Below are positions 5,945 to 16,452 of a DNA stretch of 33,815 bases, one piece after another. The notes under the pieces were generated by a model. It was not told the origin of the DNA and did not search any database. It was given only the letters and a program-made list of their open reading frames with translations. Every line of letters begins with the position of its first letter. The first letter of the stretch is position 1. The translations under genes were made by a program, and so were the position numbers. This DNA comes from Candidatus Zixiibacteriota bacterium. GTDB lineage: Bacteria > Zixibacteria > MSB-5A5 > GN15 > FEB-12. Location of the stretch: NCBI GenBank assembly GCA_020351995.1, contig CP070674.1:2393008-2426822 (forward strand), given 5' to 3'.

Positions 5945-8125
5945 TTATCGTTTCTTCTTTTTCCTCTTATCGCGCCGGACAGGTTTCCCTTTGCCTTTCT
6001 TCGGCGGCGCCTCCTTACGTGGTGGGCTGACGAGATAAAGATCCATCTCGTTGGCCACGGTATCCACGCGTAAGATGCCCACTTTCACTTTCCCGCCTAA
6101 CTGAAAGACGCGTCCCGTGCGACTCCCCACCATTCGGTACCGCTTCGCGTCAAACCTGTAATAGTCGTCATCTATCGACGACATACGCACCATCCCCTCC
6201 ACACCCATGTTATCCAGCCTGACAAAAAAGCCATGCGGCATCACGCCCGATATAACCCCCGGAAAATGGTCGCCCAGATGACGTCCCATGTATGACAGTT
6301 GCTTGACCTTGATAGCGTCACGCTCGGCCGACTCGGCCACCCGCTCGGTGTCAGAACAATGACGCCCAACACTGTCGATAAGCGTTGTCGCGCGGCGGGC
6401 AAACGACGCCGGGTAACGGCCGTTTTTCATCTTTCGCAAAAGACGATGAACAATCAAGTCCGGGTAGCGGCGAATAGGCGAGGTGAAATGCGTGTAATGA
6501 TGAAAGGCCAGGCCGAAATGGCCGATATTCTGCCGCTGATAAACAGCCTTTTTCATCGAGCGTAACATCAACTCGTTGATGAAATCTTCTTCGGGGACAT
6601 CTTTCACTTTTTCGAGGAATTTCGCGAATGCGATCGGACGCATATTGGGCGACACCGGGAAAGTATATCCCAGCCGCTGCATCAAACTCGAAAACTCCTG
6701 AATTTTCTCTAGGTCGGGTTTGTCGTGCACCCGGTACAGAAAAGCCTGTCCGGCCCGGAACACCTCGAGCGCCACCGCCTTGTTCACCGCCAGCATGAAT
6801 TCTTCGACCAGACGATGCGACTCCAGCCTAACTTTGTGCCCCAGCTCAAGCACCTCACCTTTCTTATTCAAAATGATTTTGGATTCGGGGAGGTCAAAGT
6901 CGAGCGAGCCATCGGCGAAGCGCCGCTTATTCAAAAGCAATGCCAGGTGCCGGGCAATCCGAAGATTATCGGCCACTTTTTTGAGCTTGGGCGTGACCAC
7001 GCCGGTATCGAAAAATTCCTGAACCTCTTCGTAGGCCAGCTTCGCCCGCGACTTAATAACCGTATCGGCGAAAAACCATTGAAGAGCCTTGCCGGTTTTG
7101 TCAAAGTCTATAATAGCGGAATGGGCCAGCCGCCTGCGATTCACTTTCAACGAACAGACATCATTGGAGAGCACTTCCGGAAGCATGGGAATAACCATCC
7201 CCGGCAGATACACCGAGTTCCCCCGCCGGAACGCTTCCTTATCGAGGGCGGTGCCGTCATCGACAAAGTATGACACATCGGCGATATGCACCGACAGGCG
7301 AAAGCCATCGACTGTCTTCTCTACCGAAATAGCGTCATCATGGTCTTTGGCATCGGCCGGGTCGATCGTATAGACACACTGCCTGGTAAGGTCCCTCCGT
7401 CTGTTAAGCTCTTCGTCGGTAAGTTTGGCCGAAGCAATCTCCGCCTGCGAGAGAACATCATCCGGGAATTCCTCGGGGAGATCATAGCTCTTTATCACCG
7501 TGAGCATATCCACGCCGGGTTTGCCGGGGAAACCGATACGCTCGGTAATTTTGCCTTCGGGATTGAGATGCGGGTCATCCCAGTGGGTCAGCACCACCAC
7601 GACTTTCTCACCATCCTGCGCCGAGAGCGAATCCTTGGTGGGGATATACATATCACGATGGAGCCGTTTGCTGTCGGGCACGACAAAATTGAAATTGCGT
7701 CCTTTGTGGAAGACACCCACGATATTGCGTTTGGCTCGCTCGACGATTTTTATCACGGCGCCGGTGGAACGATCCACAATGCGCCCGGTGAGACGCACCA
7801 TGACGGTGTCACCGTCGAGCGCGGTATGCAGCCGTACTTCGGGGATATAAATATCTTCCTCTTCACCTTCGACAATCAGGTATCCAACCCCGCTTCTGGT
7901 GATGGAGATTTTACCCACGCGGATATCCATTTCGACCGCGAGGCCGATTCGACCGCGCTTGAGCCGGACCAGTTCACCGGCGTCGATGAGGTCTTTGACG
8001 GCCTGCCGGAAATAGCGGTACTCGGCGTTGGGTATAGCCAGGGCTTTGGCTAACTCCTTGATTTTCATGGGGTGGGCCGATTTTTCGCGGATAAAATCGA
8101 TGATTTTTTTGGCATCTTGTTTCAT
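5945..8125 (-). CDS. rnr: Ribonuclease R
   Basis: This is a processive 3'-5' exoribonuclease that degrades structured RNA, with a role in RNA quality control. From the chosen ATG (8125) the product is about 726 residues in RNase R order: winged-helix HTH (about 1-65), cold-shock OB domains (66-235), RNB catalytic domain (about 245-570), S1 domain (about 620-700) and a lysine-rich tail. The catalytic acidic set is intact at D255, D261, D263 and D264 (IDPADAKDHDDAIS). An in-frame TTG at 8149 would add eight residues (MEGRYFGH), but MKQDAKKIIDFI is the natural domain start. Neither start has an ideal Shine-Dalgarno. The regulator gene follows after 22 bp on the same strand. Confidence 0.95.
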   Translation of the reverse strand: MKQDAKKIIDFIREKSAHPMKIKELAKALAIPNAEYRYFRQAVKDLIDAGELVRLKRGRIGLAVEMDIRVGKISITRSGVGYLIVEGEEEDIYIPEVRLHTALDGDTVMVRLTGRIVDRSTGAVIKIVERAKRNIVGVFHKGRNFNFVVPDSKRLHRDMYIPTKDSLSAQDGEKVVVVLTHWDDPHLNPEGKITERIGFPGKPGVDMLTVIKSYDLPEEFPDDVLSQAEIASAKLTDEELNRRRDLTRQCVYTIDPADAKDHDDAISVEKTVDGFRLSVHIADVSYFVDDGTALDKEAFRRGNSVYLPGMVIPMLPEVLSNDVCSLKVNRRRLAHSAIIDFDKTGKALQWFFADTVIKSRAKLAYEEVQEFFDTGVVTPKLKKVADNLRIARHLALLLNKRRFADGSLDFDLPESKIILNKKGEVLELGHKVRLESHRLVEEFMLAVNKAVALEVFRAGQAFLYRVHDKPDLEKIQEFSSLMQRLGYTFPVSPNMRPIAFAKFLEKVKDVPEEDFINELMLRSMKKAVYQRQNIGHFGLAFHHYTHFTSPIRRYPDLIVHRLLRKMKNGRYPASFARRATTLIDSVGRHCSDTERVAESAERDAIKVKQLSYMGRHLGDHFPGVISGVMPHGFFVRLDNMGVEGMVRMSSIDDDYYRFDAKRYRMVGSRTGRVFQLGGKVKVGILRVDTVANEMDLYLVSPPRKEAPPKKGKGKPVRRDKRKKKKR

Positions 8126-8168
8126 ATGGCCAAAATATCGGCCTTCCAACGCCTCAAGTCAAGCAATT

Positions 8169-8281: not shown

Positions 8282-9607
8282 CTATGGACACTCAACAAAC
8301 ACACACGGGTTTCCTGTTGAGAACAGGTAACGGGCCATGCACCTGACATCTTCTTGCGTTAGCTCGCCATCTCCATCGATATCAGCTTCTTCAAAACAGG
8401 CTGGCGCCGGACCTTCCTTGTGCAAGTGTGCATTCAGGAACTGTATATCGAATAGATTGAACTGACCGTCGTCGTTCGCATCACCCGGCACCTGGCAGCA
8501 GGAAACAGGCTCCGTGACATTAATAAAAACCGATACGCCGTTTCCGGTCACGGCCAGATCACTATCCCCATCACCATCGAGGTCACCCGTACAAATTGCT
8601 TGCCCACTGCCTCCCGGTCCAAAACTTACGGATGGGGCAAAGGTGGCATCACCGTAGTTTTCGTGGATCGATACTCGCTCGAAACTCGGCACAAAGGAGT
8701 AAACAGGCGTGGCAATGTCGCAGTCACCGTCCCGATCAAAATCCGCACCGGTAATATCAAGGCCAAATTCCGCGGTATTATAATAGACAGGATTACCAAA
8801 TGCTGCGTTTCCTGCGTTGAGCAACACGCAAAACCCGGTCGGATAATCATGGGAAACGGCCAGATCGTTGTCGCCATCACCATCAAAGTCGGCTGAGAAG
8901 ATTCCTGTCGGCCCACCTCCTATGGGGCAAATGGATGGTGCGGCGAAAGTACCATCACCGTTGTTCAGTAGAATCGCAACATTGAATTGGGCGATGTGGA
9001 TAGATGCGGCCAGGTCGATATCACCATCGTTGTCAAAATCATCCGCGCAGATCTGCTGGGTCATATCATTAGCCACATAATTGACCGGGGACGCAAATGT
9101 CCCGCTGCCGTCATTGAGCAGCACTGCCACATATGCACCTATCGCCACAGCAATGTCATTGTCCGAATCGCTATCGAAATCAGCCGAAAGAACCGATCCG
9201 GGATAGCCGCCAACCCATATCGGAGTCGGTGCACCAAAGTTCCCGGCACCGTCGTTGAGTAAAATAGATATGATCTCAGACATGTAGTTTCCGACAACTA
9301 TGTCGCCGTCACCGTCGCCGTCGAAGTCAGCGGCACGAATTGAACGTGGTTTATCACCCGTTGGATAGTTGACTGCGGTCTGAAAAGTACCATCGCCGTT
9401 GTTGAGAAGGATGGACATGTTGTGGGAATTGTAGTTTGCAACAGCGAGGTCGTTGTTACCGTCTCCGTCAAGGTCAGTTGCGCAGACCGAGATGGCAAAA
9501 TCGCCCGTCGGATAACTTACGCCTGGCTCAAAAGCCATCTGACCCGTTGCGTTGCCGGCAATGCAGGTGAAAATCAGGATTGCGCTACATCGAATAAGCT
9601 TCTTCAC
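8282..9607 (-). CDS. Secreted seven-repeat FG-GAP (VCBS) protein with dockerin-like C-terminus
   Basis: The product has 441 residues and begins with a signal peptide (KKLIRCSAILIFTCIAGNATGQ). Seven repeats of about 45-50 residues follow (about 25-365). Each carries a calcium-loop core of the type DxDxDGxxDLAV and a downstream SILLNNGDGTF-like strand, which predicts a complete seven-bladed beta-propeller. The C-terminal 70 residues (after CCQVPGD) contain two EF-hand-like loops, DANDDGQFNLFD and DIDGDGELTQED, separated by a helix, as in type I dockerins. The start is GTG, with GGGAGG 6 nt upstream. Its promoter and terminator make it a single-gene unit. Propeller proteins of this kind usually bind other proteins or sugars at the surface; the ligand here is unknown, and no cohesin partner lies in the window. 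Confidence 0.88.
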   Translation of the reverse strand: MKKLIRCSAILIFTCIAGNATGQMAFEPGVSYPTGDFAISVCATDLDGDGNNDLAVANYNSHNMSILLNNGDGTFQTAVNYPTGDKPRSIRAADFDGDGDGDIVVGNYMSEIISILLNDGAGNFGAPTPIWVGGYPGSVLSADFDSDSDNDIAVAIGAYVAVLLNDGSGTFASPVNYVANDMTQQICADDFDNDGDIDLAASIHIAQFNVAILLNNGDGTFAAPSICPIGGGPTGIFSADFDGDGDNDLAVSHDYPTGFCVLLNAGNAAFGNPVYYNTAEFGLDITGADFDRDGDCDIATPVYSFVPSFERVSIHENYGDATFAPSVSFGPGGSGQAICTGDLDGDGDSDLAVTGNGVSVFINVTEPVSCCQVPGDANDDGQFNLFDIQFLNAHLHKEGPAPACFEEADIDGDGELTQEDVRCMARYLFSTGNPCVFVECP

Positions 9608-9759: not shown

Positions 9760-9782
9760 CCCTGAGCGCCAACTTGCACCGC

Positions 9783-9807
9783 AAAAAAGCCCCGCAAAGC
9801 GGGGCTT
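9783..9807 (-). terminator. Rho-independent terminator of the sigma/anti-sigma/Spy operon
   Basis: Stem GCCCCGC/GCGGGGC (9789-9795 with 9799-9805), extended by two A-T pairs, loop AAA. On the minus strand it is followed by a U-tract (9783-9788). It ends the operon about 50 bp past the stop at 9854. Confidence 0.85.
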
Positions 9808-9853: not shown

Positions 9854-10396
9854 TCATCCGTTAGGGTCACCGAAACCGGGGGCTAATCCCATTTTGCCCG
9901 GTTTACCCTTGCCATCGCACTTTCTGTCCTTGCGCAACTTCTTAAGCTGGTCCTTCTGCTCGTCAGTAAGTACCGACATCACCTGATGCCGGTGTGCATA
10001 GCGAGCTTTCTGCATGTCCGCTTTCAACTTCGACACTTTATCAATAGCGGCGTTGACAGCGTTCAGGTCGGCTTCATCACGCTCAAGGGCTTTCAGCTCA
10101 ATCTGCGCCTTTTCGAGAGCGGCTCTACGGTCAACCTGGGCCAGCCGGAACTCCGTCATCAGGCTTTCGAGTTTGTCGCGCTGTTCATCGGTAAGATTGA
10201 TCTGATCAGCGTGAGCAAGAATCCCCCGAACACCGGGATTACCGTGGTGTCCGCCCATGCGCATGCCCTGACGTTCTCCCATAGGACCGCAACAGGGTCT
10301 GTCGCAGCAGCCTCCGCCGCGCGGGGCCGGTTGAGCCGCTGCCGCCAAGGCCGTCGCCAGGGTCAGAATAAGTGCGAGAGTAAGTAACCGTTTCAT
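9854..10396 (-). CDS. Exported Spy/CpxP-like LTxxQ protein with Cys-rich N-terminus
   Basis: The product has 180 residues with a signal peptide (MKRLLTLALILTLATALAAAAQ). Two LTDEQ motifs (68-72 and 143-147) frame a helical, highly charged domain, the hallmark of the Spy/CpxP/ZraP superfamily of periplasmic chaperones and metal-responsive proteins. Just after the signal peptide are paired cysteines (C30, C31, C35, C36) and HH (50-51) among Gly, Arg and Met residues, which could bind metal; that is inference. It is the last gene of the operon, 21 bp after the other LTxxQ-like gene, and is followed by a strong terminator. A role in envelope or metal stress downstream of the sigma/anti-sigma pair fits the context. 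Confidence 0.8.
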   Translation of the reverse strand: MKRLLTLALILTLATALAAAAQPAPRGGGCCDRPCCGPMGERQGMRMGGHHGNPGVRGILAHADQINLTDEQRDKLESLMTEFRLAQVDRRAALEKAQIELKALERDEADLNAVNAAIDKVSKLKADMQKARYAHRHQVMSVLTDEQKDQLKKLRKDRKCDGKGKPGKMGLAPGFGDPNG

Positions 10397-10417
10397 GGTT
10401 GTCTCCTTTTGTTTTAT

Positions 10418-11059
10418 TTAAATCGAATCATCTTCCACTATCTGTTGTCCGGGAGGCGGGGGATTTCCCGCGCCGCCGCGATGCCGTCCCCCGCGGCGAA
10501 ACTTATTGAGCCGGTCGAGCACCCGGGCCTCAAAGCGGTGCTCGAACACGACAAACTTGGCATACTGGTAAGGAGTTAGCAGAGGTTTGACTTCTTCCCG
10601 GAAGTCCCGGCGAAGCCGGGTCTGGCTAGTTTCCAACTCATCCAGCCGTGTGATAAGCCGTTCGATATCCTGTTCATTGAGCTTTTCTTGCCGCAGCCCG
10701 GTTGCCAGGCTGTCGACGGTCGCCCGGTGGGATCGAAACGACTCCATGCGAAGGTCGCGATATTTCCTGGCGATATCCATAAAGGCAACCTTCTGCTCAT
10801 CGTTTAGCTTAAGCAACTCAAGCAACTTTCTCATGCGCAGGCGCTCAAATCGCTCGGGGTCGGACCGGGCTTCATCGGGTTGGTCAACCTTGTCCGGGGG
10901 CATCGCCTCAGCCGCCGGCACTCTGACCGTATCCTGCTCAGGCTGAGCCGGACTTACGGTGCTATCGGTTGGCGAACTGGCCTTCCGTTCTATCGACACA
11001 GCCGTTCCACTCAAGACCAGGACCGGCGCAATGATAAGTATCATCAGTTTCAAACCCAT
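10418..11059 (-). CDS. Exported Spy/CpxP-like helical protein
   Basis: The product is about 213 residues with an N-terminal hydrophobic export segment (LKLMILIIAPVLVLSGTAV) and a low-complexity Pro/Asp/Glu linker. A long helical region follows (about 70-190), containing LNDEQKVAFMDIARKYRD and LTPYQYAKFVVFEHRFE. The paired L-x-x-x-Q turns with charged helices match the CpxP/Spy and CnrX-type 'heavy-metal resistance' fold. The tail is Gly/Arg/Pro-rich. The ATG at 11059 overlaps the anti-sigma TGA by one base (TGATG); a GTG one codon earlier is an alternative. Being coupled to a transmembrane anti-sigma factor makes it a candidate extracytoplasmic sensor or modulator of that factor, by analogy with CnrX. 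Confidence 0.75.
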   Translation of the reverse strand: MGLKLMILIIAPVLVLSGTAVSIERKASSPTDSTVSPAQPEQDTVRVPAAEAMPPDKVDQPDEARSDPERFERLRMRKLLELLKLNDEQKVAFMDIARKYRDLRMESFRSHRATVDSLATGLRQEKLNEQDIERLITRLDELETSQTRLRRDFREEVKPLLTPYQYAKFVVFEHRFEARVLDRLNKFRRGGRHRGGAGNPPPPGQQIVEDDSI

Positions 11060-11616
11060 CACAGTATCTCTCCCACATCAAAGTTTTCTTCGAGGTACTG
11101 AAGTTCTTCCTCGGTGAGGTTTTCATAAAACAGTTCGCCCGATGTTGTCTGATTCATGGTCGCGGACCGGTACATAACGTAATCAATACTGCTCTCCTCG
11201 ATTGCATCAATGTCGCCGTTTTCAAGACTCAACCATACCGTATCCTGCGAACCTGCGGTGGACGGATCCTCACCATTGCTAAACCAGCCCAGCATATAAG
11301 CCATAAACGAGATACCCAGCAGCAGAACCACGGCAGCGGCGGCCGGCACGTGCGACAGCCAGGCAGAACGAACGTCGGTAACCTTTTCCAACTCCAGTCG
11401 GTCGATACGTTCTTCGACGCGAGCGATTGAGGATTCAAGCTCCGTTTTGTCCAGATAGAAATCTTCTTCGCTGCCGAGGTTTTCTGTTGTTGTGGTGAGA
11501 TCCAGCCAGTAGTCGCGGCACTCGGGGCAGGTATCCAGATGTCGCTGAACGTCATCGGGAAGCCTCTCGGTACCGGCCATCAGCAGTAACTCGTCTTGAA
11601 TATTCTGACAATTCAT
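11059..11616 (-). CDS. Transmembrane zinc-finger anti-sigma factor
   Basis: The product has 185 residues. The cytoplasmic N-terminus carries the ZAS zinc-finger pattern C3...H26-x3-C30-x2-C33 (HLDTCPEC), which holds ECF sigma factors inactive. A predicted coiled-coil linker (about 55-80) follows, then one TM helix (about 89-112, PAAAAVVLLLGISFMAYMLG), and a 70-residue acidic extracytoplasmic domain (113-185). The start ATG overlaps the sigma factor stop by 4 bp (ATGA), so the pair is made in a coupled ratio. The outward domain could sense envelope state directly or through the two exported LTxxQ proteins encoded next. Confidence 0.88.
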   Translation of the reverse strand: MNCQNIQDELLLMAGTERLPDDVQRHLDTCPECRDYWLDLTTTTENLGSEEDFYLDKTELESSIARVEERIDRLELEKVTDVRSAWLSHVPAAAAVVLLLGISFMAYMLGWFSNGEDPSTAGSQDTVWLSLENGDIDAIEESSIDYVMYRSATMNQTTSGELFYENLTEEELQYLEENFDVGEIL

Positions 11617-12167
11617 TTATTCCATCCTTCTTTGACGGCTGTCTGGCGAAGTTTCTTGATGGCTTCCCGGTACAGGGTCTTGACCGTTCCCACTGCCTTG
11701 CCGGTTACTTCGGCCATTTCCTCAAAAGATAGCTGTTTATAAAAGCGCAACTCAAAGGCCAGTCTTTGTTGAACCGGAAGTTGTGCTGTAAAATCGAGAA
11801 CGCGTTTCCTGAGTTCTTTCTGGTCGAACTCTCGCTCCAGATTCTGATTCGATGCGTATTCAGCAATGGAACTGTCATTAGCCCGCCGTTTTTTCCTGTT
11901 GATATAATTCAGCGTTCGATTGGTGGCGATCCGGTAAAGCCATGCTTCGAATTTGGCATCACTTTTGAAATCGCGCAGGTTCTCCCAGGCGGCAACAAAA
12001 GTATCCTGGGCCAAATCAAGAGCGGCGTCTTTGTCACGGGTCATTTTGTATGTCAGTGCTACCACGGGGCTCATCATTATCCTCACGATTTCTGAGAAAG
12101 CCTGACGGTTTCCTTCTCTGGCCTGCTTCAGCAGGCTGCTGATGCGCTCACTGTCGATTCTTACCAT
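11613..12167 (-). CDS. ECF-family RNA polymerase sigma factor
   Basis: The product has 184 residues, the normal size for a group 4 sigma factor. Region 2 is visible at about 22-90 (ALDLAQDTFVAAWENLRDFK ending in YRIATNRTLNYINRKKR, the -10 recognition helix). Region 4 is at about 125-178 (LPVQQRLAFELRFYKQLSFEEMAEVTG...TVKTLYREAIKKLR, the -35 helix-turn-helix). It is the first gene of a four-gene operon with its anti-sigma factor and two Spy/CpxP-like proteins, a layout seen in envelope- and metal-stress systems. Autoregulation is likely for this class, but no clear ECF-type GAAC -35 element could be picked out upstream. Confidence 0.93.
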   Translation of the reverse strand: MVRIDSERISSLLKQAREGNRQAFSEIVRIMMSPVVALTYKMTRDKDAALDLAQDTFVAAWENLRDFKSDAKFEAWLYRIATNRTLNYINRKKRRANDSSIAEYASNQNLEREFDQKELRKRVLDFTAQLPVQQRLAFELRFYKQLSFEEMAEVTGKAVGTVKTLYREAIKKLRQTAVKEGWNK

Positions 12168-12232
12168 TCATCTGCTTTCTGATATTAAGACACCCTGGGG
12201 CAGAAAAGGATTAATCGGACCCGAAGACAAGC

Positions 12233-12260
12233 AAAAAAGGCCGGAGGAGTCTCCGGCCTT
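12233..12260 (-). terminator. Rho-independent terminator of mreB
   Basis: An 8-bp stem GGCCGGAG/CTCCGGCC (12239-12246 with 12251-12258) with loop GAGT is extended by A-T pairs and, on the minus strand, followed by six U. It lies 24 bp after the mreB stop and separates mreB from the ECF sigma operon. Confidence 0.88.
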
Positions 12261-12283: not shown

Positions 12284-13312
12284 TTAGTCTTTGCGGCTCC
12301 GTTCGACCACCTTGGCATAGGCGGCGAAGTCCGACAGAACCTTGCCACAGCCGCGCACTACGCAGGTCAGTGGGTCATCGGCGGCATTTACGGGAAGGTT
12401 AGTCTCTTGCCGCAACCGCTTGTCCATTCCGCGGAGCAGGGCACCGCCGCCGGTCAGGATGATTCCCCGCTCGAGGATATCGGACGCTAACTCCGGCGGG
12501 GTTCGCTCGAGAGCCTGGCGGACAGCTTCCACTATGATATCGATGGTTTCCGAAAGAGCCTCCCTGACCTGTACCGAAGAGAGTTTCAGATTTTTCGGTA
12601 CTCCGGCCACAAGGTCGCGACCCTTGATTTCCATCGACAGCTCTTTATCCAGTGGAAATGCCGAACCGATATTTATCTTGATGTGCTCGGCGGTAAGTTC
12701 GCCGATGAGCAGATTGTAGTTCTTCTTCAGGTACATGATAATGGCTTCATTGAGCTCATCACCGGCCACACGAATGGAGGTATCGTTGACGATACCGTTG
12801 AGAGCGATCACCGCGATCTCTGAAGTCCCACCGCCAACATCGATGATCATGCTTCCCGAAGGCTGCTCAACGGGCAAGCCCACACCAATCGCGGCCGCCA
12901 TTGGTTCCTGGATCAGGTAAACCTCGCGCGCCCCGGCGTTTTCGGCCGAATCACGAACGGCGCGCTTCTCAACCTCGGTAATGCCCGACGGCACTGAAAT
13001 CACCACCCGGGGCTTCATCAGGAAACGATGTTTGACCACCCTGGTCAGAAAATCGTGAATGAGCCGCTCCGACATTTCGAAGTCGGCAATAACACCGTCC
13101 TTGAGGGGTCGGATAGCGACGATTCCGCCGGGGGTGCGGCCGGTCATTTCTTTGGCTGCCGAACCGATCGCGAGATGCTTACCGGTTGATTTTTCAACGG
13201 CGACTACGGATGGTTCGTTGAGGACTATTCCCTGGCCGCGAACATAAACCAGCGTATTGGCGGTTCCAAGGTCGATTCCGATGTCATTGGAAAGTGCGTC
13301 GAAGATTCCCAA
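12284..13312 (-). CDS. mreB: Rod shape-determining protein MreB
   Basis: This actin-like ATPase forms membrane-associated filaments that guide lateral wall synthesis. The 342-residue product is full length for the family. Visible motifs are phosphate 1 [14 protein letters not shown] (about 11-24), [19 protein letters not shown], phosphate 2 [15 protein letters not shown] (about 154-168) and the adenosine motif [15 protein letters not shown] (about 288-302). The start is TTG (13312), with AAAGGG about 7 nt upstream. No mreC, mreD, pbp2 or rodA is beside it. A strong terminator follows directly, so it appears to be a single-gene unit. The lack of mreCD next door leaves open whether it is the main MreB or a second copy. 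Confidence 0.97.
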
Positions 13313-13467: not shown

Positions 13468-14598
13468 TCAGCCGGCCAGCAGGGTCAAGAACACTCCTGC
13501 CGCCACCGCGGACCCGATCACCCCGGCCACATTCGGCCCCATAGCGGGCATCAGCGGATTAACCTTACCCCTGGTTTCATCGGAAACGAATTTCTGCACC
13601 ACACGGGCCGCCATCGGCACCGCCGAAACTCCCGCGGCGCCGATACAGGGATTTATCTTCTTACCCGCCGGCAGGATCAGATTAAGCAACTTGGCAAACC
13701 AGATGCCCCCGGCCGTGCTGAAAGCAAAGGCCACCGCACCCAGAACCAAAACCAATAATGTGCGATAGTTCAAGAAATCGGGGCCATCCATCGTGGCACC
13801 CACCACCAGACCGAGAAAGAGCGTTACGATATCAATGAGCGAGCCACCGGCCGTCTTCCGAAGCCTTTCGGTAACGCCGCATTCGCGAAGAAGGTTACCG
13901 AACATAAGCATACCGATCAATGGAGCGGCTGAAGGAATAGCCAGGGAAGCCAGAATCCCGGTTACAATCGGGAACAAAATGGCCGCGGTTTTAGATACCG
14001 GGATGGCCTGGGGCATATCGATAGCACGCTCCTTTTGAGTAGTAAAAGCTCGCAGTATGGGCGGCTGAATTATCGGTACCAGCGACATATAACTGTAAGC
14101 GGCGACGGCCACAGGGCCAAGCAGATGCGGAGCCAGTTGAGCCGTAAGGAAGATCGATGTCGGACCGTCCGCCCCACCGATGATCCCGATACAGGCAGCT
14201 TCCTTAAAGTTGAAATTAAGGAGATAGGCGGCTCCGAGCGCCGCGACAAAAATCCCCAGCTGGGCCGCAGCCCCCAACAAAAACGTGAGGGGGCGTCCAA
14301 GAAGCGGTCGAAAATCAGTCAGAACACCGATACCAAGGAAGATAATAGGCGGAAGAAGCTCTGTCTTGATACCGCTGTCATAAATCAGAGCAATGATGCC
14401 GTTACCGTGCGAACCCATCTCGGCCAGGGGAAGATTGGCGAGGATAATCCCGAAACCTATCGGAATGAGAAGGAGAGGTTCGTAGTGCTTGGTAATGGCC
14501 AGGTATATCAGAATCCCGGCCACGGCGAACATAACCCAGTTGCTCCAGCTAAGGTGAGCGAAGCCGGATTCCTGCACCAACTGAAATAGAGCATCCAT
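13468..14598 (-). CDS. oadB: Na+-transporting carboxylic acid decarboxylase, beta subunit (OadB-like)
   Basis: The product is a 376-residue polytopic membrane protein with about nine or more hydrophobic segments. The hallmark motifs of the OadB/GcdB/MmdB family are intact: IGIIGGADGPTSIF (about 137-150), which holds the Asp essential for sodium coupling, and YSYMSLVPIIQPP (about 168-180). It decarboxylates carboxybiotin delivered by the alpha subunit and exports Na+. Start ATG 14598 has AAGGAG 8 nt upstream, overlapping the end of the alpha-subunit gene. It is the last gene of the oadG-oadA-oadB-like operon. The family does not distinguish oxaloacetate from methylmalonyl- or glutaconyl-CoA decarboxylases, so substrate depends on the alpha subunit. 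Confidence 0.93.
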   Translation of the reverse strand: MDALFQLVQESGFAHLSWSNWVMFAVAGILIYLAITKHYEPLLLIPIGFGIILANLPLAEMGSHGNGIIALIYDSGIKTELLPPIIFLGIGVLTDFRPLLGRPLTFLLGAAAQLGIFVAALGAAYLLNFNFKEAACIGIIGGADGPTSIFLTAQLAPHLLGPVAVAAYSYMSLVPIIQPPILRAFTTQKERAIDMPQAIPVSKTAAILFPIVTGILASLAIPSAAPLIGMLMFGNLLRECGVTERLRKTAGGSLIDIVTLFLGLVVGATMDGPDFLNYRTLLVLVLGAVAFAFSTAGGIWFAKLLNLILPAGKKINPCIGAAGVSAVPMAARVVQKFVSDETRGKVNPLMPAMGPNVAGVIGSAVAAGVFLTLLAG

Positions 14599-14610
14599 GT
14601 ATCCGGCTCC

Positions 14611-16452
14611 TTATGAAATAGTCATTATCGGCTTAGAGGCATCGATTTCATCACCAATCTGGACGTGGATGGCAGCAATCGTGCCACTGCACGGAGACTT
14701 GATCTCATGCTTGGCCTTCATGGCTTCCACGGCGGCGATGACGTGTCCTTTGCTGACCGTCTCTCCTTCCTTAACGAGAATATCCACAACTTCCACGAAG
14801 CCCGCGAAGGTCGAAAAGACTTTCGTACCGTTAGCGGACGGTGCAGGTGCCGCTACCGCAGCGGCGGGCGTTGGAGCGGCCGCGCCGGTAGCCGGTTCAA
14901 CCGTAACGACGAAGTTGCGTCTGACACCGTCCTCCTCAACAGTGCACCGGGTGGTGACGGGACCGGTGACCCCACCTGACGGGGCAGCGGCCGCGGGAGC
15001 GGCGGCCGGGGCCGGCTCCTCCTTTTTCTTCAATGGTATGTCAATCTTGGATTTGCCGGTGAGAAGCCGAATACCTTCGTTCAGTTCCATCTTCTTTCCC
15101 GGAACCATGGCCGCCATAACGAGGAATATATTGTTCTCGTTGACCGGTAGCCCTCGCTCCTCAAGAGCTTTCCTGGCCGGCTCGATGTTCTTGGGGGCGG
15201 CTTCCAGCGGGTCACCGTCAAAGACCGGCAGATCGAGTTGCTTCGCAGCAGCCTCGACCACCTTTGGATCGGGAGGCAGAGGCGTCTTACCGAAATAACC
15301 CAGCACAGCCTTCCCGAAACCGGCGTCTATCTTCTCCCAGCGCCCGTACAGAACATTATTGAAAGCCTGCAGCCAGTACTGCTGACTACCGGGAGTCACG
15401 CTTGTCCAGGCACCACCGGCTTCCACCACCACCGGGAACTCCGCCAGAACATCACTGTACTTATCCAGGATACCGGCCTTCACCATCATGTGAACATTGG
15501 GGCCAATAGCGCCACCCGGCATCGGGAAGCCCAGCACCCGGGCGTCGGCTGTGGTAGTGGTAGGATTGAAAGCATAGTCCTTGAGAGCCTCATCGAGCAT
15601 CTTCTCAAGTTCGCCCATCTTGGAGACATCGATATCCAGCGAATAGCCGGTGTCCTTGAGGCCATGAGCCAGCGAGCGAACATCCGGCTGAACCGTACCG
15701 CTGGCCATCGGCCGTAGCGACAGGTCAACGCCGTCTACACCCGCGGCGATACCGGCCATGTAGCAGGATACGGCTGTGCTGGCAGTGTCGTGGGTGTGAA
15801 GCCAGAGAATCATCTCCGGCGGCATGAGCTTCCTCAGCCCGAGAGCAGAATCGTAAATCGTCTTGGGATCGGTTGTACCGCTGGCATCCTTCAGACAGAT
15901 CGAATCAATATGCATGCCGCTATCGAGCAGACGCTTGCCGATGTTTATGTAAAACTCGGGCGTGTGAACTTTGTCCGATTTGAAAGGAAGTCCCATCAGG
16001 GCGATACAGACCTGGTGATGCATTCCGGCATCGATAATCGGTTTGCCAGTCTTTATCAGGTTGTCGACGTCGTTCATGTAGTCGAAGTTGCGATCCCAGG
16101 TCGTACCGGCTTCTTTCATCAGTTTGGCCTGCAGGGTAAGTCCTTCGAGTGACTGCGTCGTCAGCGTCACGCCGGAAACGGAACGGGTGAGAATCTGCAG
16201 ATCTACATCCGGCCCAACCGCCTCGCGCATCTTTTTCATATTATCGAATGGATCTTCGCCAAGGTAAAAATACGGAGCCTGATACCGGGCACCACCGCCG
16301 AACTCGAAATGCTTGATGCCCATCTCGGCGCTGGCTTTCATAACCGGAAGAATATCATTAAGACGGACTTTTCCACCAAAGGAGCTTTGAAGACCGTCAC
16401 GGAAAGGGGTGAACATCACCCTGATTTTCTTGGGCGTGCTGGTGAAAATCAT
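14611..16452 (-). CDS. oadA: Biotin-dependent decarboxylase alpha subunit / pyruvate carboxylase subunit B-like
   Basis: The product has 613 residues: an HMGL-like TIM-barrel carboxyltransferase (about 5-290) with RDGLQS near the start, CLKDASG carrying the active lysine and LHTHDTAST carrying metal-binding histidines; then a PYC/OADA domain to about 465; an Ala/Pro linker; and a biotinyl domain with EAMKA, whose Lys579 lies 34 residues from the end. It transfers CO2 from a 2-oxo acid to biotin. Some barrel motifs differ from classic OadA: the usual RGxN.VGY region reads RSVSGVTL, and RDAHQS reads RDGLQS. The substrate is therefore probably, but not certainly, oxaloacetate. GAGGAG precedes the ATG by 5 nt, and the start overlaps the gamma-like subunit stop by 4 bp. 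Confidence 0.9.
   Translation of the reverse strand: MIFTSTPKKIRVMFTPFRDGLQSSFGGKVRLNDILPVMKASAEMGIKHFEFGGGARYQAPYFYLGEDPFDNMKKMREAVGPDVDLQILTRSVSGVTLTTQSLEGLTLQAKLMKEAGTTWDRNFDYMNDVDNLIKTGKPIIDAGMHHQVCIALMGLPFKSDKVHTPEFYINIGKRLLDSGMHIDSICLKDASGTTDPKTIYDSALGLRKLMPPEMILWLHTHDTASTAVSCYMAGIAAGVDGVDLSLRPMASGTVQPDVRSLAHGLKDTGYSLDIDVSKMGELEKMLDEALKDYAFNPTTTTADARVLGFPMPGGAIGPNVHMMVKAGILDKYSDVLAEFPVVVEAGGAWTSVTPGSQQYWLQAFNNVLYGRWEKIDAGFGKAVLGYFGKTPLPPDPKVVEAAAKQLDLPVFDGDPLEAAPKNIEPARKALEERGLPVNENNIFLVMAAMVPGKKMELNEGIRLLTGKSKIDIPLKKKEEPAPAAAPAAAAPSGGVTGPVTTRCTVEEDGVRRNFVVTVEPATGAAAPTPAAAVAAPAPSANGTKVFSTFAGFVEVVDILVKEGETVSKGHVIAAVEAMKAKHEIKSPCSGTIAAIHVQIGDEIDASKPIMTIS

Follow-up and report, generated by a model that had tools for sequence, protein, structure and literature searches.

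What does an extracytoplasmic function (ECF) sigma factor control when its gene shares an operon with a membrane anti-sigma factor gene and the genes of two exported proteins of the LTXXQ family? This question is raised by a stretch of 33,815 nucleotides of a Candidatus Zixiibacteriota bacterium (NCBI GenBank assembly GCA_020351995.1, contig CP070674.1, positions 2,393,008 to 2,426,822 of the forward strand), which is called the window here and to which the positions below refer. An earlier note on this DNA had read the locus as CnrYXH-like and had considered metals and envelope stress as its signal. With a probability of about 0.6, we read the operon as an autoregulated, sigma-based envelope-stress response that is core to Zixibacteria, in which the first exported protein (A) would be a CnrX-like brake and the second (B) a Spy-like chaperone. 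The features concerned are the following.

11613..12167, minus strand: ECF sigma factor gene, 184 aa, with Sigma70_r2, r4_2 and TIGR02937 matches
11059..11616, minus strand: membrane anti-sigma factor gene, 185 aa, with C3, H26, C30 and C33, a hydrophobic segment at about 87-110, a linker and a tail
11062..11130, minus strand: codons of anti-sigma residues 163-185 (FYENLTEEELQYLEENFDVGEIL), the periplasmic tail, conserved by column and proposed as a docking peptide
10418..11062, minus strand: gene of protein A, 214 aa, GTG start; exported LTXXQ protein with a CnrX-like helical hairpin, proposed brake or sensor on the anti-sigma tail
9854..10396, minus strand: gene of protein B, 180 aa; exported Spy/CpxP-like LTXXQ/Metal_resist protein, proposed effector chaperone
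10289..10309, minus strand: CC-x3-CC cysteine codons of protein B; the motif is not conserved
12189..12214, minus strand: predicted autoregulatory promoter, with -35 TTAATC (12209-12214), a 16 nt spacer and -10 TGTC (12189-12192)
12231..12260, minus strand: terminator-like GC-rich inverted repeat and T-run between mreB and the sigma gene, read in the sequence
9781..9807, minus strand: terminator-like GC-rich inverted repeat and T-run after the gene of protein B, read in the sequence
12284..13312, minus strand: mreB, conserved upstream neighbour by gene neighbourhood
5945..8149, minus strand: rnr (RNase R), conserved downstream neighbour by gene neighbourhood

The four-gene operon and its predicted promoter in Zixibacteria

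All four open reading frames (ORFs) lie on the minus strand and span 12167 down to 9854. The sigma and anti-sigma genes overlap by 4 bp, the anti-sigma gene and the gene of A overlap by 4 bp, and 21 bp separate A from B, which bears out the tight coupling that the earlier note had claimed; its gene identities (ECF sigma factor, transmembrane anti-sigma factor and two different exported proteins of the LTXXQ family) were confirmed as well. A single coupled operon is supported, co-transcription being predicted from the gene order, the overlaps and the single conserved promoter upstream. No RNA element reached the Rfam gathering score between positions 9500 and 12700.

The anti-sigma factor was searched for in 61 genomes, namely the window's own and 60 relatives, and matched in 48; the regions around these matches were compared, one per genome (order level). 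All four genes stood in the same order in 46 of the 48 regions, so this order is not a product of chance. One of the remaining two ends at a contig edge after A, and the other (L064) holds another sigma/anti-sigma pair, with neither A nor B. For the class level, 23 genomes from the class's other families were chosen for a strong match to A (E 1e-24 or better). Sigma, anti-sigma and A followed in order in 22/22 regions with a sigma match, and B as well in 20/22; as exceptions, the sigma frame of L222 runs out into unrelated sequence and the twenty-third region is truncated at its start. Across the phylum, the profile of A matched 92 of 132 genomes (E 0.001 or better), six of these matches being weak (E 1.7e-11 or worse) and possibly B-like proteins or fragments.

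The neighbourhood is also conserved. Of the 45 orthologous order-level regions that extend more than 200 bp upstream, 44 have mreB on that side and on the operon's strand, no further than about 4 kb away; of the 44 that extend 1 kb or more downstream, 39 have rnr there, again on the operon's strand. This has the look of a core locus that is passed on vertically in Candidatus Zixiibacteriota, and a mobile metal-resistance cassette is rejected on the grounds of the mreB-rnr neighbourhood. In genome G003, of the same genus, the sigma gene and the promoter were located at 2182 kb and genes A and B at 1519 kb (L148, L238); the stretch at its sigma locus reads N and then other sequence, the operon being split or misassembled there.

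A shared ECF-type promoter, which the earlier note had suggested looking for upstream of position 12167 and elsewhere, exists as a motif, and its use is predicted. The bipartite TT[A/G][A/G]TC-N16/N17-[T/G]GTC stood upstream of the operon at 45 of 47 order-level loci in the first scan. The start codon of one miss (L056) had been set too far upstream, and this locus carries TTGGTC-N16-TGTC (L199); the other (L046) has 64 bp of upstream contig. The motif is accordingly present in 46/46 order-level operons with upstream DNA, and in the window the single TTAATC-N16/17-TGTC match is the predicted operon promoter.

The -35 element differs between the families of the order, being TTAATC in f1 (28 loci), TTAGTC in f4 (11) and TTGGTC in f2 (6), with TTAGTC at the f2 locus L068 and TTCGTC in a further f4 genome (L239) as exceptions. 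In other families of the class, TTAAAC-N15-18-[T/G]GTC was found in 21/22 operons versus 3/1100 shuffles, and TTAAAC occurred in the operon-promoter setting at 0/47 order-level loci. ECF autoregulatory promoters are described as generally having AAC at -35 and CGT at -10 (PMC4153023), so the order-level TT[A/G][A/G]TC is a departure, whereas the class-level TTAAAC does hold AAC. The recognition helix of the sigma factor reads K[A/S][N/S]YxQA in 18/22 sigmas at the class level, KTxYREA in most of f1 (with the variants YRQA and YRES), KT[N/H]YQKA in f4 and KTx[F/Y]AEA in f2, the exceptions being KTNFSEA in L068 and KTNYQRA in L239. It is suggestive that the -35 element varies in step with this helix, a match given without a statistic since the evolutionary events are few.

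Two further segments of the window were read by eye. Between the operon and rnr, positions 8282-9607 encode a repeat protein with FG-GAP-like and dockerin-like segments, which looks like a local insertion because rnr starts about 225 bp past the operon in the sister genome G001 (L023). Upstream of mreB, positions 13468-16452 encode a carboxylase beta-subunit-like membrane protein and a pyruvate-carboxylase-type subunit, and the former precedes mreB in the sister genomes G001 and G002 too.

The anti-sigma tail and the two LTXXQ proteins

The sigma factor scored 60.4 bits with Sigma70_r2 (E 1.5e-16, cut-off 24) and 47.5 bits with r4_2 (E 1.4e-12, cut-off 25.7) in Pfam, and 98.5 bits with TIGR02937 (cut-off 42.9) in NCBIfam; with regions 2 and 4 above the curated cut-offs, it is an ECF sigma factor. 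The window's whole genome holds 21 Sigma70_r2 matches but two LTXXQ matches, which are A and B.

The anti-sigma factor reached 17.8 bits with Pfam zf-HC2, under the cut-off of 22.2, and aligned to profile positions 20-35 only. Its ligands H26, C30 and C33 were each present in 45/47 orthologues and C3 in 44/47. Hx3Cx2C is described as the signature of class I of the zinc-type anti-sigma (ZAS) factors (PMC7406223), and the protein carries this signature plus an N-terminal Cys. The membrane segment was recognised by eye, and the AlphaFold2 (AF2) model of a relative has a helix at 85-107. Among the 47 orthologues, conservation averages 2.45 bits per column in the last 23 residues, more than in any other part of the protein: the anti-sigma domain averages 1.87, the membrane segment 1.54 and the periplasmic linker 1.15. 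By eye, the proteins of the class's other families end in a comparable way, and the pair in L064, which comes without A and B, has no such tail (n=1, its last residues being masked). Since the tail is short and conserved after a variable linker, and A is encoded by the neighbouring gene, the tail may be a docking peptide with A as its natural partner.

Protein A scored 26.2 bits with PF07813 (LTXXQ), above the cut-off of 24.3, and does not appear among the PF13801 (Metal_resist) matches of the Pfam scan. It forms a separate family in which some residues are invariant and R/K and RFE residues are conserved, and is probably soluble rather than anchored, judging from an AxA-Q-like leader. Its core is a hairpin of residues 71-180 with an AF2 predicted local distance difference test (pLDDT) score of 90-98. 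When this model was compared with solved folds using Foldseek, CnrX chains took 14 of the first 17 places (prob 0.98-1.00, TMt 0.64-0.77), CpxP ranked 19 and NccX ranked 30; by sequence, A's profile matched CpxP best among the PDB entries (E 3.5e-4). The CnrYXH-like logic proposed in the earlier note finds some support in this ranking of folds, at weak E-values, and metal sensing is not supported: apart from the initiator, no column with a His/Cys/Met majority exists among the 47 A sequences. The conserved periplasmic metal ligands of a CnrYXH-type system are absent from A, whereas for CnrX the conserved Met123 of the metal site is reported to be necessary for signalling (PMC7689651).

Protein B scored 43.0 bits with PF07813 (cut-off 24.3) and 37.4 bits with PF13801 (cut-off 29.2) in Pfam, and 41.4 bits with the NCBIfam Spy model, under its cut-off of 174; its best PDB sequence match was Spy, a weak one (E 0.012). 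The metal-like patch of B noticed earlier is real in the window, where the CC-x3-CC and HH residues are present. The CC-x3-CC is not conserved, being found in 1/46 B proteins, that of the window alone. It is plausible that A and B are a sensor and an effector chaperone, respectively.

Predicted targets in relatives and in the window's own genome

In f1, the genomes were searched with the pattern ATTAATCNTT-N13/14-TGTC, and the reversed pattern was used as control. Sixty-three sites were found in 34/54 genomes versus 11 for the reversed pattern; 22 of the 63 belong to the operon sigma gene, and 25 of the 41 non-operon sites precede one of six recurrent families (phmmer), namely a lipoprotein-like family with a VDGxxxDW-like motif (12), a second lipoprotein-like family (4), an OmpR-type regulator (3), an adaptor of the resistance-nodulation-division (RND) type (3), a small exported protein (2) and murA (1). 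This count shows recurrence only, because the six families were chosen from these same sites. Among f1 genomes with A, 31/43 have one or more sites, the operon's own included, whereas five f1 genomes are without A in spite of a completeness of 90% or more (G075, G015, G076, G019, G021), and none of them has a site. The f1 promoter form gave 4 sites in 13 f4 genomes, with 0 before the operon or any of the six families.

Three independent tests were available. With the TTAGTC pattern, 18 sites were obtained in 12/13 f4 genomes, 11 at operons and 7 elsewhere; 6 of these 7 stand before genes of the lipoprotein, regulator, adaptor or murA families, and the remaining one before that of another HlyD-type adaptor. 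With the TTGGTC pattern, 10 sites were obtained in 5/7 f2 genomes versus 3 for the reversed pattern, and these comprise 5 operons, 3 lipoprotein genes, 1 gene of an outer-membrane efflux protein and 1 site before nothing. In the third test, the upstream regions of the lipoprotein genes were scored using a matrix built solely from operon promoters, with the 99% point of 3000 shuffles as threshold, and 19/25 in operon-bearing genomes lay above it. The six misses include the locus of G020 (L172), where the contig begins so that no DNA lies upstream, and those of G086 and G032, which outscore all 100 of their own shuffles.

The VDGxxxDW-like family is exported or lipoprotein-like and has a Gly/Met-rich tail (L191, L192, L201-L203, L149-L178). 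The two lipoprotein-like families gave no Pfam match in five members scanned and no NCBIfam match in two; for the VDGxxxDW-like family alone, there was no Pfam match in three members and no NCBIfam match in one. In two or more genomes (L157, L164), its gene is the immediate upstream neighbour of murA. Among the NCBIfam rows of the RND-type adaptors is CzcB/NccB, with a score under the cut-off of that model.

In the window's own genome, 9 TTAATC-N16/17-TGTC sites were found versus 1 for the reversed pattern. Besides the operon, one lies close before a gene, that of a predicted lipoprotein at 178036, with a score of 11.2, and a TTAGTC-N17-TGTCTAA starting about 97 nt ahead of the murA start scored 7.7; the per-region null for these scores is 6.3 at 95% and 10.7 at 99%, which is lenient for a whole-genome search. 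The sites L084, L085, L088, L090 and L091, inside genes or away from gene starts, were treated as chance, and so was L086 (TTAATC-N16-TGTC), beside an inverted repeat which by eye we take to be CIRCE-like. Site L087 stands about 110 nt ahead of a glycosyltransferase-like frame. The best match to the OmpR-type regulator in this genome had 24% identity, and no site over score 8 was present in its locus.

Competing readings and known systems

Zinc-type anti-sigma domains are known to hold ECF sigma factors. In the proposed off state, the zinc-type domain of the anti-sigma factor would hold the ECF sigma factor at the membrane, while periplasmic A, which has no metal ligands, would dock on the conserved C-terminal tail and keep the anti-sigma factor inhibitory. 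Misfolded or damaged envelope material may pull A away, upon which the anti-sigma factor would release the sigma factor. The freed sigma factor would transcribe from TTAATC-N16/17-TGTC promoters, a motif that is observed and whose use is predicted. Induction of the operon would raise the level of the sigma factor and of the effector, the Spy-like chaperone B, while newly made A would reset the switch. In relatives, further targets would be the lipoprotein-like family with the Gly/Met-rich tail, the RND-type adaptors, the OmpR-type regulator and murA.

Several results weigh against this envelope-stress reading. The Foldseek E-values of A are 0.057 or worse, and in a VIA-align comparison CnrX came near the top (Z 10.5, 106 aligned, root-mean-square deviation 3.5) but level with designed bundles and unrelated helical proteins. 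The predicted fold of a read-through fusion of anti-sigma and A in a relative had a predicted template modelling (pTM) score of 0.40, and in this model the tail and A's signal peptide form one helix. No A-profile match was found in 40/132 phylum genomes; the genomes without a match include all four of f3, a family of the same order, and several assemblies more than 95% complete. As for the regulon, 16/41 sites away from the operon in f1 stand before no member of the six families, 12/43 f1 genomes with A show no site under the strict pattern, the reversed f4 pattern gave 9 sites versus 18, and 2/5 genomes without a detected operon (72% and 81% complete) carry a site before the lipoprotein gene. 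The VDGxxxDW lipoprotein family was not found in the window's own genome, where the two extra candidates are weak, so a regulon there is only weakly supported. Moreover, B has a conserved His135 (40/46) and Met-rich columns, so a metal role for B is possible.

The best surviving rival, though an unlikely one, is a plain sigma/anti-sigma/Spy operon, in which the anti-sigma factor would sense stress itself and A and B would only be effector chaperones. It is in keeping with the membership of A and B in the same LTXXQ family and with Phocaeicola vulgatus, where a sigma/anti-sigma pair (cirYZ) is described as co-transcribed with spy and its regulon as having putative peptidoglycan-acting genes (PMC13114119). 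However, A stands between the anti-sigma factor and B in 46 intact regions, mostly overlapping the anti-sigma gene, and is a separate family which co-occurs with the conserved tail, while the one pair without A lacks the tail.

Less probable again is that A is an activator which, bound to damaged envelope components, would grip the tail and trigger destruction of the anti-sigma factor. From the conserved tail a partner can be predicted, though not whether it acts positively or negatively; a brake is favoured by analogy, because mutations inactivating CnrX or CnrY are reported to derepress CnrH targets (PMC4803752).

The least likely of the rivals is a CnrYXH-type metal sensor, in which metal-bound A would pull the anti-sigma factor off the sigma factor and induce efflux and a metal-binding chaperone B: the CnrX chains at the top of A's fold list, the Metal_resist score, His135 and Met-rich columns of B and the CzcB/NccB rows of some predicted targets speak for it, but it is rejected as the main explanation on account of the ligands missing from A and a CC-x3-CC unique to the window's B, the locus lies between mreB and rnr in most relatives and not beside metal efflux genes, and the predicted targets, with murA recurring among them, include the lipoprotein family, the RND-type adaptors and the OmpR-type regulator.

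Under the envelope-stress reading, a wider proposal can be put forward tentatively, at somewhat less than even odds. A phylum-wide system may exist in which a CnrX-fold brake free of metal sites reads the folding state and acts on a dedicated 23-residue tail, together with a Spy-like effector, and in which promoter and sigma factor would have co-evolved, the -35 element moving from TTAAAC to TTAATC, TTAGTC and TTGGTC (once TTCGTC) with the recognition helix, while the shared targets (lipoprotein, adaptors, regulator and murA) kept pace. With the envelope-stress reading itself, a largely uncultured phylum would gain a concrete envelope-stress pathway with a predicted switch, promoter and regulon. 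The joint drift of -35 element, recognition helix and targets across families offers candidate orthogonal sigma/promoter pairs, and is also a direct test of how ECF promoter specificity shifts while targets are retained.

The general kind of system is known, and no description of the Zixibacteria version was found among open-licence papers, an absence which is weak evidence. The closest described operon type is CirY/CirZ-spy of P. vulgatus and its paralogue, a sigma/anti-sigma pair with a Spy-like chaperone gene, described as autoregulated, strongly induced in colitis and having putative peptidoglycan-acting targets (PMC13114119). It has one spy gene, whereas the Zixibacteria operon has two distinct LTXXQ proteins, the additional one (A) being CnrX-like, and a conserved anti-sigma tail.

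In CnrYXH, an ECF sigma factor, a membrane anti-sigma factor and periplasmic CnrX are described as encoded together, the sigma factor transcribing its own locus (PMC4803752). The operon resembles CnrYXH/NccYXH of Cupriavidus metallidurans in combining these two factors with a periplasmic partner that may share the CnrX fold. It differs in the gene order (Y, X, H there; sigma, anti-sigma, A, B in Zixibacteria), in an A that lacks conserved metal ligands and is apparently not anchored, in the second LTXXQ protein, and in having mreB and rnr rather than efflux genes as neighbours. Since conserved ligands were tested for and not found, the Zixibacteria operon is not classed as a metal-sensing member of CnrYXH.

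CpxP and Spy of Escherichia coli are periplasmic proteins of the Spy/CpxP fold that act as feedback inhibitor and chaperone, respectively. They are the best PDB sequence matches of A and B, and the difference is that CpxP/CpxA belongs to a two-component system, whereas Zixibacteria have a sigma/anti-sigma pair. The CnrX-type metal sensor and the Spy/CpxP-type folding sensor may be versions of one device controlling an anti-sigma tail, and by analogy the operon appears to work like a sigma-based counterpart of Cpx/Spy signalling, built from CnrYXH-like parts.

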